Shown here one piece after another: positions 14,584 through 64,000 of a stretch of DNA of 64,000 nt. The notes beneath the pieces are model-generated. The model made no database searches. It worked only from the letters and a program-made list of their open reading frames with translations, and was not told the origin of the DNA. Origin of the DNA: Peribacillus kribbensis DSM 17871. GTDB taxonomy: Bacteria > Bacillota > Bacilli > Bacillales > DSM-1321. The stretch covers positions 96,952-160,951 of the forward strand of contig NZ_KE387240.1 of assembly GCF_000430765.1 (NCBI RefSeq), written 5' to 3'. The position numbers and the translations under genes were made by a program. Within the stretch, counting starts at the first letter, position 1. Each line of letters starts with the position of its first letter.

Positions 14584-14612
14584 GTGTAATGTAATAAGAA
14601 AATTAATAAGTC

Positions 14613-14739
14613 TATCTTCGGGGCAGGGTGAAATTCCCGACCGGCGGTATTGAGCTGAAAGCTCTAAGCCCGCGAGCCTTTTTTGGCAGGATTTGGTGAG
14701 ATTCCAAAGCCGACAGTACAGTCTGGATGGGAGAAGATG
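14613..14739 (+). ncRNA. FMN riboswitch (RFN element)
   Basis: The characteristic RFN core is present: GGGGCAGGGTGAAATTCCCG, then ACCGGCGGT, GAGCTGAAAGCTCT, AGCCCGCGAGC, GATTTGGTGAGATTCC and AAAGCCGACAGT, closed by ATCTTC (14614-14619) and GAAGAT (14733-14738). The RNA binds flavin mononucleotide and represses downstream flavin transport genes. About 150 bases separate it from ribU, leaving room for the expression platform, which I could not define with confidence. Confidence 0.97.
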
Positions 14740-14891
14740 GAGGTTCTAAGACGTTCAAACATGCATTTATCGAACGTTTATTTGAATTTGCCATACAAGT
14801 CCCTTTCCGAATTTTTTTGGAGGGATTTTTTTATGGAATTCAAATGGACCTTTCCTCTTTTTTGGTGATAGACGAAAAGGAGAGAATAGAA

Positions 14892-22803: not shown

Positions 22804-22831
22804 TTGCACAGAGGTTTCAAAGGTGTATACT
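22804..22831 (+). promoter_or_regulatory. Promoter of gudB
   Basis: TTGCAC (22804-22809), a 16-base spacer, TATACT (22826-22831), about 50 bases before the gene. Confidence 0.65.
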
Positions 22832-22882
22832 ATGTCTGAAAGAGCGGCCCTGCCCGATTATAGAATTCTTAGGAGGATACTA

Positions 22883-24160
22883 ATGGTAGCCGAAAAAAGC
22901 AATGAAACTGCAACTCAAGAAGATAAGCATGATGTGCTTAAATCGACTCAGACAGTAATTCATAAAGCATTGGAGAAGCTTGGATATCCAGAGGAAGTTT
23001 ATGAACTGCTGAAGGAACCTATTAGAATGATGACCGTGAAAATTCCAATCAGGATGGATGACGGATCTATAAAGATTTTTACTGGCTATAGAGCTCAGCA
23101 TAATGATGCTGTTGGACCAACAAAGGGAGGGATCCGTTTTCACCCGAACGTAACAGAACGTGAAGTAAAAGCGCTTTCTATTTGGATGAGCTTAAAATGC
23201 GGCATTGTGGACCTTCCGTACGGCGGGGGTAAGGGCGGAATCATCTGCGATCCAAGGAACATGTCTTTCCATGAACTGGAGCGCCTCAGCCGTGGATATG
23301 TCAGGGCAATCAGCCAGATTGTAGGACCAACAAAGGATATTCCAGCACCGGATGTCTTTACAAACTCGCAGATCATGGCCTGGATGATGGATGAATACAG
23401 CAGGATAGATGAATTTAATTCACCGGGGTTCATCACGGGAAAACCTCTTGTGCTTGGAGGCTCTCACGGCCGTGAATCAGCGACAGCTAAAGGGGTTACA
23501 ATCTGTATCCGTGAAGCAGCAGCTAAAAAGGGCATCCAGATTGAAGGCGCCAGGGTAGTCATCCAGGGCTTCGGGAATGCCGGAAGCTACCTGGCTAAAT
23601 TTATGCATGATGCGGGAGCGAAAGTGATCGGTATTTCTGATGCCTATGGAGCCCTTCATGATCCTGATGGCCTTGATATTGATTACCTTCTTGACCGCAG
23701 GGACAGCTTTGGAACAGTTACAAAACTATTTAAGAACACAATCAGCAATAAAGAGCTTCTTGAGCTTGATTGTGATATTTTGGTGCCTGCAGCCATTGAA
23801 AATCAAATCACCGAAGAAAATGCCCATAATATCAGAGCGAAAATCGTAGTTGAGGCTGCAAACGGCCCTACCACCATCGAAGCTACCCAAATTCTTACAG
23901 ACCGGGGCATCCTTCTTGTACCGGATGTTCTCGCTTCCTCCGGCGGTGTAACGGTCTCTTATTTCGAATGGGTGCAGAATAATCAGGGCTACTATTGGAC
24001 TGAAGAAGAAGTAGAGGAAAGACTGGAGAAAATCCTGGTCAAATCCTTCAACAACATTTACGACACCGCCCAAAGCAGACGCGTCGACATGAGACTTGCC
24101 GCCTACATGGTAGGAGTAAGAAAAATGGCCGAAGCAAGCAGATTCAGGGGATGGATATAA
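22883..24160 (+). CDS. gudB: Glutamate dehydrogenase GudB
   Basis: NAD-dependent glutamate dehydrogenase of 425 residues, converting glutamate to 2-oxoglutarate and ammonia. The catalytic lysine region is DLPYGGGKGGI and the nucleotide-binding motif is VIQGFGNAGSYLA. The segment TEREVKALSIWMSL lacks the 9-base duplication that inactivates gudB in B. subtilis 168, so the enzyme should be active. ATG 22883 follows AGGAGG (22871-22876). Toward the end the codon use changes: by hand count 35 of the last 43 third positions are A or C. A repeat array starts at the base after the stop codon. Confidence 0.96.
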   Translation: MVAEKSNETATQEDKHDVLKSTQTVIHKALEKLGYPEEVYELLKEPIRMMTVKIPIRMDDGSIKIFTGYRAQHNDAVGPTKGGIRFHPNVTEREVKALSIWMSLKCGIVDLPYGGGKGGIICDPRNMSFHELERLSRGYVRAISQIVGPTKDIPAPDVFTNSQIMAWMMDEYSRIDEFNSPGFITGKPLVLGGSHGRESATAKGVTICIREAAAKKGIQIEGARVVIQGFGNAGSYLAKFMHDAGAKVIGISDAYGALHDPDGLDIDYLLDRRDSFGTVTKLFKNTISNKELLELDCDILVPAAIENQITEENAHNIRAKIVVEAANGPTTIEATQILTDRGILLVPDVLASSGGVTVSYFEWVQNNQGYYWTEEEVEERLEKILVKSFNNIYDTAQSRRVDMRLAAYMVGVRKMAEASRFRGWI

Positions 24161-24355
24161 AGAAAAGCGGAAAGCGGTGCCTTCCACTTCAAAAATTGAT
24201 CAGGAATTCTATGTATCTCTAAAAATAATGTGAGAAACCTATACCTTGGAAGGCAGAGTCCTGACAAGCATAAGCCAAACCGCGCATGGGAAGTGCTTTT
24301 CCTTCCCATGCGCGGTTTGGCTTATGACTCGAAGGACTCAGCTTGGAGCTGGACA
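24161..24355 (+). repeat. Structured repeat family B, unit 1
   Basis: A unit of about 190 bp starting AGAAAAGCGGAAAGCGGTGC and ending GGAGCTGGAC. It contains stem P1 (GCCTTCCA 24179-24186 / TGGAAGGC 24247-24254), stem P2 (GAGTCCT 24256-24262 / AGGACTC 24333-24339), and within P2 a perfect 25-bp hairpin (24269-24293 / 24302-24326, loop of 8) closed by CATAAG/CTTATG. It begins at the base after the gudB stop. Confidence 0.92.
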
Positions 24356-24356
24356 A

Positions 24357-24549
24357 GAAGAAAAGCGGAGAACGGTGCTTTTCAAGCTCGCCTAGTCTAA
24401 AGCAGAATGATAAGGAAAAAGATTACAAAAACTAGACTTATTGAAAAGCAGACACCTGAAAGGCATAAGACGGACGGCAGTGAAAGGCGCTTTTTGCCTT
24501 TTGCTGGCGGCTGGCTTATGCCCGAAGGTGTCAGTTCGGAGCTGGACAA
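24357..24549 (+). repeat. Structured repeat family B, unit 2
   Basis: Same architecture with different stem sequences: P1 is GCTTTTCAA (24377-24385)/TTGAAAAGC (24441-24449) and P2 is GACACC (24451-24456)/GGTGTC (24527-24532). The inner hairpin, CATAAG to CTTATG, is imperfect here. Confidence 0.9.
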
Positions 24550-24550
24550 G

Positions 24551-24746
24551 AAGAAAAGCGGAAAGCGGTGCCTTCCACTTCAAAAATTGATCAGGGATTC
24601 TATGTATCTCTAAAAATAATGTGAGAAACCTATACCTTGGAAGGCAGAGTCCTGACAAGCATAAGACGAACCGTGCATGGGAAGTGCTTTTCCTTCCCAT
24701 GCGCGGTTTGGCTTATGACTCGAAGGACTCAGCTTGGAGCTGGACA
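24551..24746 (+). repeat. Structured repeat family B, unit 3
   Basis: Near-identical to unit 1 in its outer part, including P1 GCCTTCCA/TGGAAGGC and P2 GAGTCCT/AGGACTC. The left arm of the long hairpin differs at a few bases, so that hairpin is no longer perfect. Probably a recent duplication. Confidence 0.9.
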
Positions 24747-24925
24747 AGAAGAAAAGCGGAAAGCGGTGCCTTTCACTTCAAAAATTGATCAGGGATTCTA
24801 TGTATCTCTGAATAATGTGAAAAAACCTATATATTGGAAGGCAGAGTCCTGACAAGCGTAAGACGAACCGCCCATGGGAAGTGCTTTTTCTTCCCATGGG
24901 CGGTTCGTCTTATGACTCGAAGAAT
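24747..24925 (+). repeat. Structured repeat family B, unit 4 (3' truncated)
   Basis: P1 is GCCTTTCA/TGGAAGGC with a G-T wobble. The long hairpin is again perfect but with different pairs (GACGAACCGCCCATGGGAAG and its complement). After CTTATGACTCGAAGAATC the usual tail is missing. The bases to ypdA (24926-25093) show nothing else recognisable. Confidence 0.85.
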
Positions 24926-25093
24926 CGCATTCTTCTCCCAAAATCTCACTATGAAGCATAATAATTAGGAAAAGTGTTAGTGCAGAATACCTGATATTTG
25001 AAACAAATAAAAAAATCTCCTATCATTGGAATATATAGAATGATGAAATATAAAATAAATTGTTTAGTGAGACAACACAAGAGGAGTGCCGTC

Positions 25094-26074
25094 ATGCAGA
25101 ATGAAGATGCAATCATTATTGGAGGAGGCCCATGCGGCCTGGCCGCTGCCATCGCCCTTATAGAGCTGGGGAAGAATCCCCTGGTTATAGAAAAAGGAAA
25201 TATTGTTAATTCCATTTATCATTACCCAACCCATCAGACGTTTTTTAGTTCCAGTGAAAAGCTGGAAATTGGTGATGTTGCGTTTATTATTGAAGGCAGA
25301 AAACCTGTCCGCAATCAAGCTTTGGCCTATTATCGAGAAGTAGTGCGGAGGAAAAAGCTCAGAATCAATTCGTTTGAAAAAGTAGAAGGTGTTGAGAAGT
25401 CAGCTGACAGCTCCTTCATTGTAAAAACGTCCAAAGGAGAGTATAAGACTCCAAATGTTGTGATTGCTACGGGGTATTATGACAACCCGAATTATATGAA
25501 CATTCCTGGAGAAGATTTAGATAAAGTGTTCCATTATTTTAAAGAAGCGCATGAATTCTTTGATAAGGATGTTGTGGTGATAGGCGGAAAGAATTCCAGT
25601 GTGGATGCTGCGCTTGAACTGGTTAAGGCTGGGGCAAGAGTAACCGTATTTTACAGAGGCATGGAATACTCAAAAAGCGTAAAGCCATGGATTCTGCCAG
25701 AGTTTGATTCTTTAGTCAGAAATGGAACGATCAAAATGGAATTCAATGCTCATGTTACGCGCATTACCGATGACTCGGTCGAATATCGAATCGATGGGGA
25801 AAACCAAGCTGTAAAAAATGACTATGTTTTTGCCATGACAGGCTACCATCCGGATCATAGCTTTCTAAAAGCAATAGGGATACAGATTGACGAAGAAACT
25901 GGCAGACCTATTCATAATCCGGAAACAATGGAAACCAATATTCCGGGATTATTCATTGCCGGAGTAATTGCGGCGGGAAATAATGCGAATGAAATTTTTA
26001 TTGAAAACGGCCGCTTCCATGGAGGCTTAATTGCGGATTGCATCAAAGCCAAGGAGGAAGCAGGCAGAAGATGA
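25094..26074 (+). CDS. ypdA: Bacillithiol disulfide reductase YpdA
   Basis: FAD-dependent, NADPH-using reductase of oxidised bacillithiol, part of the Brx/YpdA redox repair pathway; 326 residues. It has the FAD-binding motif IIGGGPCGLAAAIAL with the conserved family cysteine after GGGP, and the NADPH-binding motif VVIGGKNSSVDAALEL. The block NSIYHYPTHQTFFSSSEKLE is characteristic of YpdA. ATG 25094 lies seven bases after GAGGAG; longer in-frame starts upstream are unsupported. Confidence 0.95.
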   Translation: MQNEDAIIIGGGPCGLAAAIALIELGKNPLVIEKGNIVNSIYHYPTHQTFFSSSEKLEIGDVAFIIEGRKPVRNQALAYYREVVRRKKLRINSFEKVEGVEKSADSSFIVKTSKGEYKTPNVVIATGYYDNPNYMNIPGEDLDKVFHYFKEAHEFFDKDVVVIGGKNSSVDAALELVKAGARVTVFYRGMEYSKSVKPWILPEFDSLVRNGTIKMEFNAHVTRITDDSVEYRIDGENQAVKNDYVFAMTGYHPDHSFLKAIGIQIDEETGRPIHNPETMETNIPGLFIAGVIAAGNNANEIFIENGRFHGGLIADCIKAKEEAGRR

Positions 26075-42077: not shown

Positions 42078-42174
42078 GCTATTAAAAATGCAAATGTGTT
42101 AAGATGGGGATATCTTTAGCGATATACAGCACATGCCGTATATTCGTGTTTTAGGGTTTACAGGAGGAAATGAA

Positions 42175-42741
42175 ATGACAGAAGTTAACCATGCGCAAAT
42201 CGAAGAAGCTGTACGAATGATACTGGAAGCGGTTGGAGAAGATCCGGACAGGGAAGGCCTTCTGGAAACGCCGAAAAGAGTAGCAAGAATGTATGAAGAA
42301 ATCTTTACAGGAATTAACCAGGACCCTGGCCATTATTTTGATACGGTTTTTGGGGAGGAACATGAAGAGCTTGTCCTGGTCAAAGATATTCCTTTCTATT
42401 CTGTATGTGAGCACCATCTGGTTCCCTTCTTTGGGCACGCACACGTTGCCTATATACCGAGGAACGGAAGAGTTACCGGTTTAAGTAAACTTGCCCGTGC
42501 AGTGGAGGCGGTAGCAAAAAGGCCGCAGCTCCAGGAAAGAATTACCTCCACAGTGGCAAATACGATCATGGAAAAATTAAAGCCATATGGTGTGATGGTG
42601 GTCGTTGAAGCGGAGCATATGTGCATGACCATGAGGGGCGTCAAAAAACCAGGCTCCAAGACCATTACCTCTGCAGTACGTGGCGTTTTTAGAGAAGATG
42701 ACCGTTCCAGAGCTGAAGTACTTTCTTTAATAACCAAGTAA
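42175..42741 (+). CDS. folE: GTP cyclohydrolase I
   Basis: Converts GTP to 7,8-dihydroneopterin triphosphate, the first step of folate synthesis (mtrA in B. subtilis); 188 residues. Zinc ligands lie in [10 protein letters not shown] (C78, H81) and in [16 protein letters not shown] 42175 follows AGGAGGAAATGAA; a longer frame from 42133 is unsupported. It forms the mtrAB operon with mtrB, 31 bases downstream. Confidence 0.96.
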
Positions 42742-42772: not shown

Positions 42773-42997
42773 GTGAAAGAAACCATTAATCCCGACTTTG
42801 TAGTCATCAAAGCAAAAGAAGACGGCGTAAACGTAATAGGCTTAACAAGAGGAACAGACACCCGCTTCCACCACTCAGAAAAACTGGATGCCGGAGAAGT
42901 CCTCCTAGCCCAATTTACCGAACACACCTCAGCCATAAAAATCCGCGGAAACGCACAAATATACACACCATATGGAGAAATCCATAGTGAAAAATAA
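42773..42997 (+). CDS. mtrB: trp RNA-binding attenuation protein TRAP
   Basis: Forms an 11-subunit ring that, with bound tryptophan, wraps GAG/UAG repeats in trp leader RNAs and causes termination. 74 residues; the family blocks [14 protein letters not shown] and [18 protein letters not shown] are intact. The start is GTG 42773. Codon use is extraordinary: by hand count 64 of 74 third positions are A or C, with only two G and eight T. A repeat array begins at the base after the stop. The trp operon itself is not in its B. subtilis position (see 51973-52035). Confidence 0.95.
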
Positions 42998-43185
42998 AAA
43001 GCGGAAAGCGGTGCCTGCTAAACAAGCCTTTTTGAAAACACATTGATACACAATATAATTTATACATCAAACAAAATTAGCAGGCAGAGACCCGACAAGC
43101 ATAAGACGAGCCGGCTGTGAGGAGCGGTTTTGTCCTCATAGACGGATTGGCTTATGACTCGAGGGTCTCAGCTTGGAGCTGGATT
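42998..43185 (+). repeat. Structured repeat family B, unit 5
   Basis: Starts at the base after the mtrB stop (AAAGCGGAAAGCGGTGCC). P1 is GCCTGCTAA (43013-43021)/TTAGCAGGC (43077-43085); P2 is GAGACCC (43087-43093)/GGGTCTC (43163-43169). It has the inner CATAAG to CTTATG hairpin and the tail GCTTGGAGCTGGA. Its P1 and P2 sequences differ from those of units 1-4 yet still pair. Confidence 0.92.
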
Positions 43186-43186
43186 A

Positions 43187-43378
43187 ATAAAAAGCGTAGA
43201 ACGGTGCTTTTCAAACAATAATATTTTTTGGCAGAATGACGCTCACACAAGGTTAGAAATTAGAATTATTGAAAAGCAGCCATCCGACAAGCATAAGACG
43301 GGGTGGCTGTGGGAAGTGGTTTTCTTCCCATAGACAGCCTGGCTTATGACTCGAGGATGGCAGTTCGGAGCTGGATTA
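43187..43378 (+). repeat. Structured repeat family B, unit 6
   Basis: P1 is GCTTTTCAA (43206-43214)/TTGAAAAGC (43269-43277); P2 is GCCATCC (43279-43285)/GGATGGC (43355-43361), a fourth distinct P2 pair. The inner hairpin has GGGAAG/CTTCCC near the loop. Confidence 0.92.
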
Positions 43379-43565
43379 ATAAAAAGCGGAGAACGGTGCT
43401 TTTCAAAATAGAACTAAATTAAAGCAGAGTGACTATCATATAAGATATAACACCAAGCACCCATTGAAAAGCAGACACCTGAAAGGCATAAGACAGAAGG
43501 CATCAAAAGGCCCGCTTTTGGCCTTTTGATGGCGGCTGGCTTATGACCGAAGGCGGCAGTTCGGA
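43379..43565 (+). repeat. Structured repeat family B, unit 7 (3' truncated)
   Basis: P1 is GCTTTTCAA/TTGAAAAGC. The P2 left arm GACACC faces GGCGGC and no longer pairs fully. The inner hairpin keeps an 11-bp perfect stem (CATCAAAAGGC and its complement). The tail stops at GGCAGTTCGG, like a decayed end unit. Confidence 0.85.
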
Positions 43566-43621
43566 ATCTCTTAGCAGCTTGCTTAATAGATCGTTCTGTG
43601 AGGGTCCCTTTTAGCAACACA

Positions 43622-43841: not shown

Positions 43842-43894
43842 GTACTTTGTTTCGTATATTAGATAAGAAAATTGCAGTCATAAGGGTGATCAAT

Positions 43895-44668
43895 ATGCTA
43901 AATCTTGAAAATAAAACAACAGAATTAATTCAGCTTATTGAGGAAGCTGTTCATCATCCTTATCTGCTCAACTATATAGATAAGCCGGAGATCGACAAAG
44001 TAAAGCTTAGTCTGATCCTGGAGCTGTTCACAAAATCGGATCTGCCTGAAAAGAAAAAGAAAGATACGATCCTTGCGGCTATGCTTGTCCAGATTGCTTT
44101 GGATACACACGAACGAGTGTCTCTTTCTGTATCGGTCAGAGAGGATCCAATGGAATTGAAAAGCAGGCAGCTGACGATTCTGGCTGGAGATTACTTCAGC
44201 GGTTTATATTACAGCATTCTTGCCGGAATTGGAGAGGTTTCCTTTATCAAATACCTTTCAGGCGGCATTAAAGATATAAATGAACATAAAATCATGCTCT
44301 ACCAGGCTGATTTTCATCAACCTGGCGAGCTTCTAAAAACCCTTGAAATGATTGAATCCGGAATATTGCTGCAGGCTGCCGATGCTCTGGGGGAATCTTC
44401 AACAAAAGCATTTTTGTCCAAAATCCTTTTGTGTAAAAGGCTCATCGAAGAAAAGAAGCTTTGCCTGCAGGACGAGGGCTCCTATGCCCTGCAGCACTTG
44501 GAAACACTGCTTGGTGCCTCAGGTTCTGGAAATAAAGCAGAAAAAGCAGATATCATAAAGTTTTTAGACAGTACCACTGCATCGATTATCCAGGAATTAC
44601 ATAGTTCATCATTCGATATTGAGGCCAAAAAGGATTTTATATCAAAATTGGAGCAGAGGGCAAAATAG
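43895..44668 (+). CDS. hepS: Heptaprenyl diphosphate synthase component 1
   Basis: Small regulatory subunit that combines with HepT to make the C35 side chain of menaquinone-7; 257 residues. It is poorly conserved, but RQLTILAGDYFSGLYYSILA and INEHKIMLYQ match the family. ATG 43895 follows AAGGGTGATC. hepS-menG-hepT are closely spaced as in B. subtilis, where they form the ger C locus. Confidence 0.92.
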   Translation: MLNLENKTTELIQLIEEAVHHPYLLNYIDKPEIDKVKLSLILELFTKSDLPEKKKKDTILAAMLVQIALDTHERVSLSVSVREDPMELKSRQLTILAGDYFSGLYYSILAGIGEVSFIKYLSGGIKDINEHKIMLYQADFHQPGELLKTLEMIESGILLQAADALGESSTKAFLSKILLCKRLIEEKKLCLQDEGSYALQHLETLLGASGSGNKAEKADIIKFLDSTTASIIQELHSSSFDIEAKKDFISKLEQRAK

Positions 44669-63858: not shown

Positions 63859-63871
63859 GTTTACTTGTATA

Positions 63872-63956
63872 GAAATGCACCGTTCCAGGCCATGGGAAGA
63901 AAGGCGCTTCCCACGGCCTGCTCATCTTATGCTGGTCGGGCCTCTGCCTTCCAACT
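63872..63956 (-). repeat. Structured repeat family B, partial reversed copy
   Basis: Read on the minus strand it contains GGAAGGCAGAGGCCCGACCAGCATAAG-type sequence (in pieces), an inner stem with GGGAAG and CTTCCC, then GAACGGTGC. The second half of the unit (CTTATG onward) is deleted or replaced, and the expected order of the blocks is changed. Confidence 0.7.
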
Positions 63957-64000
63957 AGTTGTATTTTTCTGTATATTTATGATTTACATTGTGATCTTCC

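Follow-up and report, generated by a model that had tools for sequence, protein, structure and literature searches.

The stretch of DNA analysed here (hereafter the window) comprises 64,000 nucleotides of the Peribacillus kribbensis DSM 17871 genome, and it raises the question of what the tandemly repeated sequence immediately behind its glutamate dehydrogenase gene is, how it came to lie there and what it may do. The host gene occupies positions 22823–24160 of the plus strand and terminates with a TAA codon (24158–24160) located 2 nt before the first repeat unit. Its name, gudB, is the label given in the preliminary description of this locus; the product was matched by the NCBIfam glutamate dehydrogenase profiles with a best E value of 5e-163, under their curated cut-offs. 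A search with TRF found a single array in this region, spanning 24160–24922 with a period of 198 and 3.9 copies. Four head-to-tail units sharing a common tail had been described. The tandem repeats proved to be real, but only three units are complete: unit 1 (24163–24354, subtype A), unit 2 (24361–24547, subtype B) and unit 3 (24554–24745, subtype A), all on the plus strand, scored 180.2, 157.4 and 178.9 bits, respectively, with our covariance model R1. These three share the tail GGAGCTGGAC. Unit 4 (24752–24922, plus strand) is truncated at its 3′ end, where homology ceases at approximately 24922, and lacks both the second strand of stem P2 and the tail; its R1 score of 119.7 bits was obtained over 24752–24940, the match being degenerate. 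Consecutive units are separated by the same 6-nt linker, AAGAAG, at 24355–24360, 24548–24553 and 24746–24751.

Complete units follow the layout AAAAGCGG, P0, P1 with a long variable loop, a P2/P3 hairpin, P0′ and GGAGCTGGAY. In unit 1, an outer 3-bp stem AGC (24166–24168 with 24348–24350), paired in 97.3% of alignment cells, is separated by a GGA/GGA internal loop from P0, where AAGC (24172–24175) faces GCTT (24341–24344). Stem P1 (24178–24186 with 24247–24255) encloses an AT-rich variable loop of near-constant length (24187–24246), and is followed by P2 (GAGTCCT at 24256–24262 with AGGACTC at 24333–24339) and by the 25-bp stem P3 (24269–24293 with 24302–24326). The sequences quoted earlier for P1 and P2, including the wobble-paired P1 of unit 4, were all found in the DNA. 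The inner hairpin, said to be perfect in two units, is an exact 25 bp in unit 1 but contains one G-T pair in unit 4. Stem P0 had been overlooked: it reads AAGC/GCTT in units 1 and 3 and GAAC/GTTC in unit 2, where P1 is GCTTTTC and P2 GACACCT. Because P0 closes the structure, the fold is a three-way junction, and the repeat is a non-coding unit of approximately 190 bp for which modelling predicts a three-way junction fold. The window contains a second array of the same family on the plus strand (42997–43573), with units at 42997–43184, 43190–43376 and 43382–43573 (R1 scores of 188.0, 189.4 and 114.7 bits), the last of them devoid of a tail. This array sits between an ORF at 42133–42741, which we take to encode a GTP-cyclohydrolase-like protein, and an ORF at 43847–44668. 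A weak partial match on the minus strand (63859–64000, 36.4 bits) is cut by the edge of the window.

The preliminary description had also proposed that compensatory changes in the stems reflect a maintained fold. We aligned 37 units from the P. kribbensis genome and evaluated a 48-pair structure that had been written by hand from unit 1. This structure was formed in 92.0% of cells and slid versions of it paired in 34–47%, a comparison tilted in its favour as the structure was taken from one row of the alignment. Double compensatory changes were observed at 32 of the 48 pairs and in 227 cells, values reached in none of 500 shuffles for either measure, and the proposal is well borne out. The doubly changed pairs included 3 of 4 in P0 (95.3% of cells paired; variants AAGC/GCTT, GAAC/GTTC or GAGC/GCTC), 5 of 9 in P1, 6 of 7 in P2 and 17 of 25 in P3. 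Two sister species provided 147 distinct rows with 37 of 48 pairs doubly changed (977 cells), rows that had been aligned to the model and are thereby biased towards its structure. Across genera, a 24-pair subset corresponding to a shorter form of the element showed double changes at 15 pairs among 14 sequences. Minimum-energy RNA folding of units 1 and 2 recovered P0, P1, P2 and P3 without any alignment, with z-scores of −9.37 and −4.91 (0 of 200 shuffles each). When unit 1 was folded as DNA the minimum-energy structure retained the same helices, and the centroid structure was without P0 and the outer stem. Across the 37 units, G-T pairs outnumbered A-C mismatches 95 to 11, and therefore the strand kept foldable is the one running in the direction of gudB. 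This was clearest in P3 (76 to 0), while P0 alone gave 5 to 7. Such an asymmetry may reflect folded RNA or folded single-stranded DNA alike.

The suggestion that this is an undescribed multi-copy structured element was likewise supported. A blastn search with unit 1 returned 79 matches in the 5.05-Mb genome, no matches in 72,556 plasmid records and none in phages. With model R1, scored on up to 150 candidates, the three genus genomes yielded no fewer than 121, 149 and 147 matches; besides P. kribbensis these are Peribacillus deserti V1-29 and DSM 105482 (G001 and G002). Model R2, built on the shorter 120-nt form and scored on 59 candidates per genome, found matches in 57 of 61 genomes and in 25 of 28 genera, with at least 10 in 26 genomes and 1–3 in many others. 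Loci with members were found in Rossellomorea, Robertmurraya and Fredinandcohnia, as well as in Anoxybacillus, where P3 has diverged. The pattern GCATAAG..CTTATG was discarded as a family finder, being too narrow and giving as many matches in controls. In Rfam, no family reached its gathering score over the array, and a permissive scan of 24100–25000 yielded 19 matches, all under the gathering score and 11 of them to microRNA families. The only Rfam family to score in the 64-kb window was an FMN riboswitch at 14610–14742 (123.5 bits). A literature search by sequence strings and words, of partial coverage and including few subscription papers, returned no description of this repeat family. The family is real and order-wide, and no existing name for it was found within the literature and Rfam searched. 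Behind gudB in other genera, sequences with similar ends and quite different interiors were noted (L121:5725–5960, L141:5578–5935 and L145:5887–5937); we read these gudB-associated elements as a modular superfamily.

We then examined where the arrays start. Matches were grouped into 96 arrays, and an array was called stop-adjacent if its start fell between −12 and +5 nt relative to the stop of a co-oriented ORF (90 aa or longer). This was the case for 24 of the 96 arrays, compared with 547 of 18,600 random intergenic points from the same loci (2.9%). The spacing was often exact, with 12 arrays at +4 and 5 at 0, that is 17 of 96 versus 0.65% of random points. Within the wider interval of −40 to +60, 35 arrays started near a co-oriented stop codon. 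A mirror control, in which the stop codon of an antisense ORF was sought at the right end, gave 1 of 96 in the narrow interval (unchanged when the trailing partial unit was counted in) and 8 of 96 in the wide one. For the remaining 72 arrays no adjoining stop codon was detected. Among 65 gene ends in named relatives that matched a gudB-end pattern, at least one of which (L144) is not gudB, the stop codon is directly followed by an element or part of one in five (L080, L121, L126, L141 and L145), with differing subtypes and clearly different interiors, and most are empty. Elements also recur at a second conserved gene, presumably ychF, whose product ends in ..HFRFNV (L015, L271, L276 and L075): its stop codon carries them in each of the three genus genomes, in degenerate form in G001, and in G015 as well.

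The sequence at the junctions offered a possible reason for this placement. The gudB end, GGCTGGATTTAA, resembles the element tail, GGAGCTGGAT, and the left flanks have a position-wise majority of TAACAAG or similar, as do the linkers (86 unique linkers profiled). A stop triplet was present at −7 to −5 in only 13 of 57 other first-unit flanks, so that TAACAAG is to be regarded as a position-wise majority and not as a fixed motif. These similarities hint that the tail of the element may itself be an insertion target, which would explain the head-to-tail arrays. A second repeat (..CCCGCAGGAGTCTTCGCGCCTTCCACTCCAATCAAC; for example L006:1691–1730 and L014) hosts 27 of the 96 arrays, as judged from their left flanks, and in most cases the array is a single unit. 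At first sight these resembled independent insertions into a target, but with both flanks nearly constant composite spread is equally likely; the second repeat and the element may have spread together.

In order to compare occupied and empty sites, the flanks of 16 of the 24 stop-adjacent arrays were searched for in the genus genomes. Eleven of the 16 sites (L036, L038, L051, L013, L174, L181, L179, L193, L214, L194 and L201) had an empty counterpart in one or more of the other genus genomes. In ten cases the left junction coincides with the stop codon kept by at least one relative or falls within 2 codons of it. At L038 the array lies approximately 15 codons inside the coding sequence kept by both relatives and itself supplies a TAA stop codon. 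Homology at the empty sites mostly resumes downstream of the array, with offsets varying from a few to hundreds of bases. Seven sites (L016, L015, L172, L177, L194, L217 and L201) were occupied in two or three species, some of the copies being degenerate, and L194 and L201 had both empty and occupied orthologs. For L281 and L282 no alignment reached the junction, and the comparisons for L051, L013, L174 and L217 were made without a close ortholog from the third genome. Since a number of sites carry arrays in each of the three species, movement would be slow or past. With regard to target-site duplications, the right flanks were too diverged or the arrays too truncated to fix the right junctions; duplications within the linkers were considered and dropped, as just some linkers share 3–5 nt with the left flank.

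A terminator-like hairpin was found no more than 450 nt downstream of the last complete unit in 9 of the 24 stop-adjacent arrays, compared with 3 of 240 base shuffles, and inside the array in 3 of the 24. The downstream hairpins indicate that the arrays lie where the 3′ untranslated region (UTR) of the messenger should be. What speaks against this is that in the region 24100–25120 the promoter- and terminator-like matches inside the units were all on the minus strand. A role as intrinsic terminator was rejected, there being none on the plus strand of this region and five on the minus strand. A coding role was also set aside, as the ORFs overlapping the array look like chance and the loops vary freely. 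Hardly any two copies have the same P1 loop, yet its length is kept, and a central ATG (positions 23–40) is present in 51 of 56 distinct loops. Orthologous P1 loops of sister species are still recognisable (L184 versus L210); the loop therefore drifts fast, with compensation taking place in the stems. Two inner variants were seen: subtype B units in L190, L205 and L214 carry a terminator-like hairpin in the P1 loop (GGCTAAGC..GCTTAGCC or similar) followed by a T-rich stretch, and some units (L027, L030, L038, L046 and L047) contain an extra module of approximately 30–70 nt between P2 and P3 (TAAAGAAGACTTGCTGATTGGCGAGCG...TTAGTCGCACTTATGC).

The arrays follow a grammar of their own. Ninety contained a complete unit, and the pattern of the right flank places 64 of these outside the second repeat. 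After the last tail-bearing unit, these 64 show a further, clearly 3′-truncated unit ending short of model position 170 in 42 cases, one ending at 177–183 in 6, a further full-length unit in 5 and no further unit in 11; these end points are approximate, since an alignment may break off prematurely within the variable loop. Tail-like sequence precedes 12 first units, in one case being the end of the host gene (L194). Among the others, L014, L198 and L199 may follow a 5′-truncated unit, four are too near the end of the fetched sequence and the rest follow fuller units. Adjacent units had equal P0, P1 and P2 stems in 31, 26 and 9 of 107 pairs, compared with 34, 29 and 21 of 53 pairs of next-but-one units. 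This difference between neighbours gave P values of 0.0005 (P0), 0.003 (P1) and 0.0005 (P2) against shuffling within arrays. Against random pairs from all tandem arrays, P1 showed no such difference (0.7575), and P0 and P2 a weak one (0.0855 and 0.0575). The pattern is in part accounted for by duplication of dimers, which explains ABAB runs (for example L210); for mixed arrays of two units one has to suppose that a second unit arrived, that a unit was lost or that selection disfavoured equal neighbours.

Several small repeat families and recombination sites of bacteria invite comparison. Integron attC sites also follow stop codons; their core sites are RYYYAAC and GTTRRRY and they are served by the IntI integrase. 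We found that the element lacks the terminal inverted repeats of a MITE, as just 3 bp of its ends, AAAAGCGG and GGAGCTGGAY, pair with each other. Enterobacterial REP/BIME sequences are likewise folded, intergenic and present in many copies, part of them near stop codons, as are 24 of 96 arrays here against 2.9% of random points. REPs are palindromes of 20–40 bp (PMC3733652), and those within 15 nt of a stop codon are reported to stall ribosomes (PMC12306157, citing its reference 17). By contrast, the present unit is a multi-helix three-way junction of 120–190 nt, repeated in tandem in one orientation, with no Y1/RAYT gene found in the window's genome and, by pattern scan, no element found near 20 Y1 loci of relatives. 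The BOX elements of Streptococcus pneumoniae (PMC3049150) are interspersed and modular as well, fold strongly and contain inner modules in tandem; there boxB is repeated inside boxA and boxC, whereas here whole units are repeated, a search for terminal inverted repeats gave none and one array in four begins at a stop codon. The bcr1–bcr18 repeats of the Bacillus cereus group, characterised as 100–400 bp long with mobile features and a link to a TTTAT motif (PMC6542083), are likewise Bacillus repeats, compared here by description and not by sequence alignment. They differ in that, in our family, just 6 of the 57 left flanks of first units (24 nt each) contained TTTAT. Bhal-1 of Bacillus halodurans, a structured stem-loop family of 36 copies from the same order (PMC2267715), differs in its length of 74 bp and may overlap the short form of the present family. 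By analogy, the family would work like REP, BOX or bcr repeats. As it lacks tested defining features of REP and of MITE, we class it among the small structured mobile repeats as a new variant that belongs to neither.

On balance, we favour, if only slightly, the reading that the array is a tandem, non-coding element of approximately 190 bp that is non-autonomously mobile, inserts in sense orientation at stop codons and would constitute a structured 3′ UTR. It builds on the covarying fold and the strand that keeps it, on occupied and empty orthologous sites, on the excess at stop codons with its recurrent 4-nt spacing, on head-to-tail arrays whose 5′ end is defined and whose last unit is often truncated, and on stem subtypes that tend to differ between neighbours. 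HUH enzymes of the Y1 type act on a folded single strand from its 5′ end, and we infer that an enzyme supplied in trans would move the folded strand of the element in this way. TAACAAG-like sequences and the element's own tail would attract insertions, and the units would be co-transcribed with the upstream gene. Extrapolating from REP repeats, the fold beside the stop codon is predicted to slow ribosome release or to guard the mRNA 3′ end. Selection for position could mimic targeting. A rival proposal, in our judgement an unlikely one, is that the repeat is a host 3′-UTR RNA element which selection keeps and local duplication multiplies, and which is not mobile. Such a proposal would accommodate the orthologous arrays that two or three species share at one position, in which the stems have been preserved and the loops have diverged, the recurrent distance from the stop codon and the tendency of neighbours to have unequal stems. 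It is at odds with the 11 of 16 sites that are empty in another genus genome, and with the very high copy number and the many intergenic places occupied. More speculatively, and with considerable doubt on our part, the family may be an order-wide mobile element homing to translation-termination sites: it would insert in sense, a fixed few nt behind the stop codon or replacing it, and bring its own stop codon if needed, its arrays would arise from landing on its own tail, and orthogonal stem sets would alternate so that neighbouring junctions avoid joint misfolding.

The identity of a mobilising enzyme also separates the remaining explanations. A strict REP/BIME mobilised by a Y1 transposase of the RAYT type would agree with structured intergenic repeats near stop codons and with the single Y1 match found in each P. 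deserti genome, V1-29 and DSM 105482, in open frames of 203 and 184 aa (L226 and L227) that we take to be RAYT-like. We judge it quite improbable, as no Y1 protein was found in the window's genome, no Y1 match was obtained in 6 of the 26 genomes in which R2 matched 10 times or more, and the units are several times the length of a REP. Moreover, a pattern scan of 20 Y1 loci (the Y1 frame being read in 15) gave a few matches that were considered unrelated on visual inspection, and located no element within approximately 2.3 kb. Rolling-circle elements have a fixed 5′ end, miss their 3′ end and form multimers, and an element of another HUH kind (Rep or IS91/Helitron-like) would match the defined 5′ ends, the often ragged 3′ ends and the multimers observed here. 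Against this stands the lack of any Y2_Tnp match in the three genus genomes, a weak zero as no control genome gave a match, and we hold this explanation to be improbable. Sense insertion at gene ends would also be compatible with a retroelement copied from RNA, but no RVT_1 reverse transcriptase was found in the three element-rich genus genomes (controls positive in 3 of 14), making this origin very improbable indeed.

A structured sequence without an Rfam entry thus occurs in many genomes of one bacterial order. How small folded bacterial repeats choose their sites, and of what use they are to the host, are old open questions. With its oriented spacing from stop codons, its occupied and empty sites and its covarying fold, this family makes both the choice of target and an effect on the end of translation directly testable.
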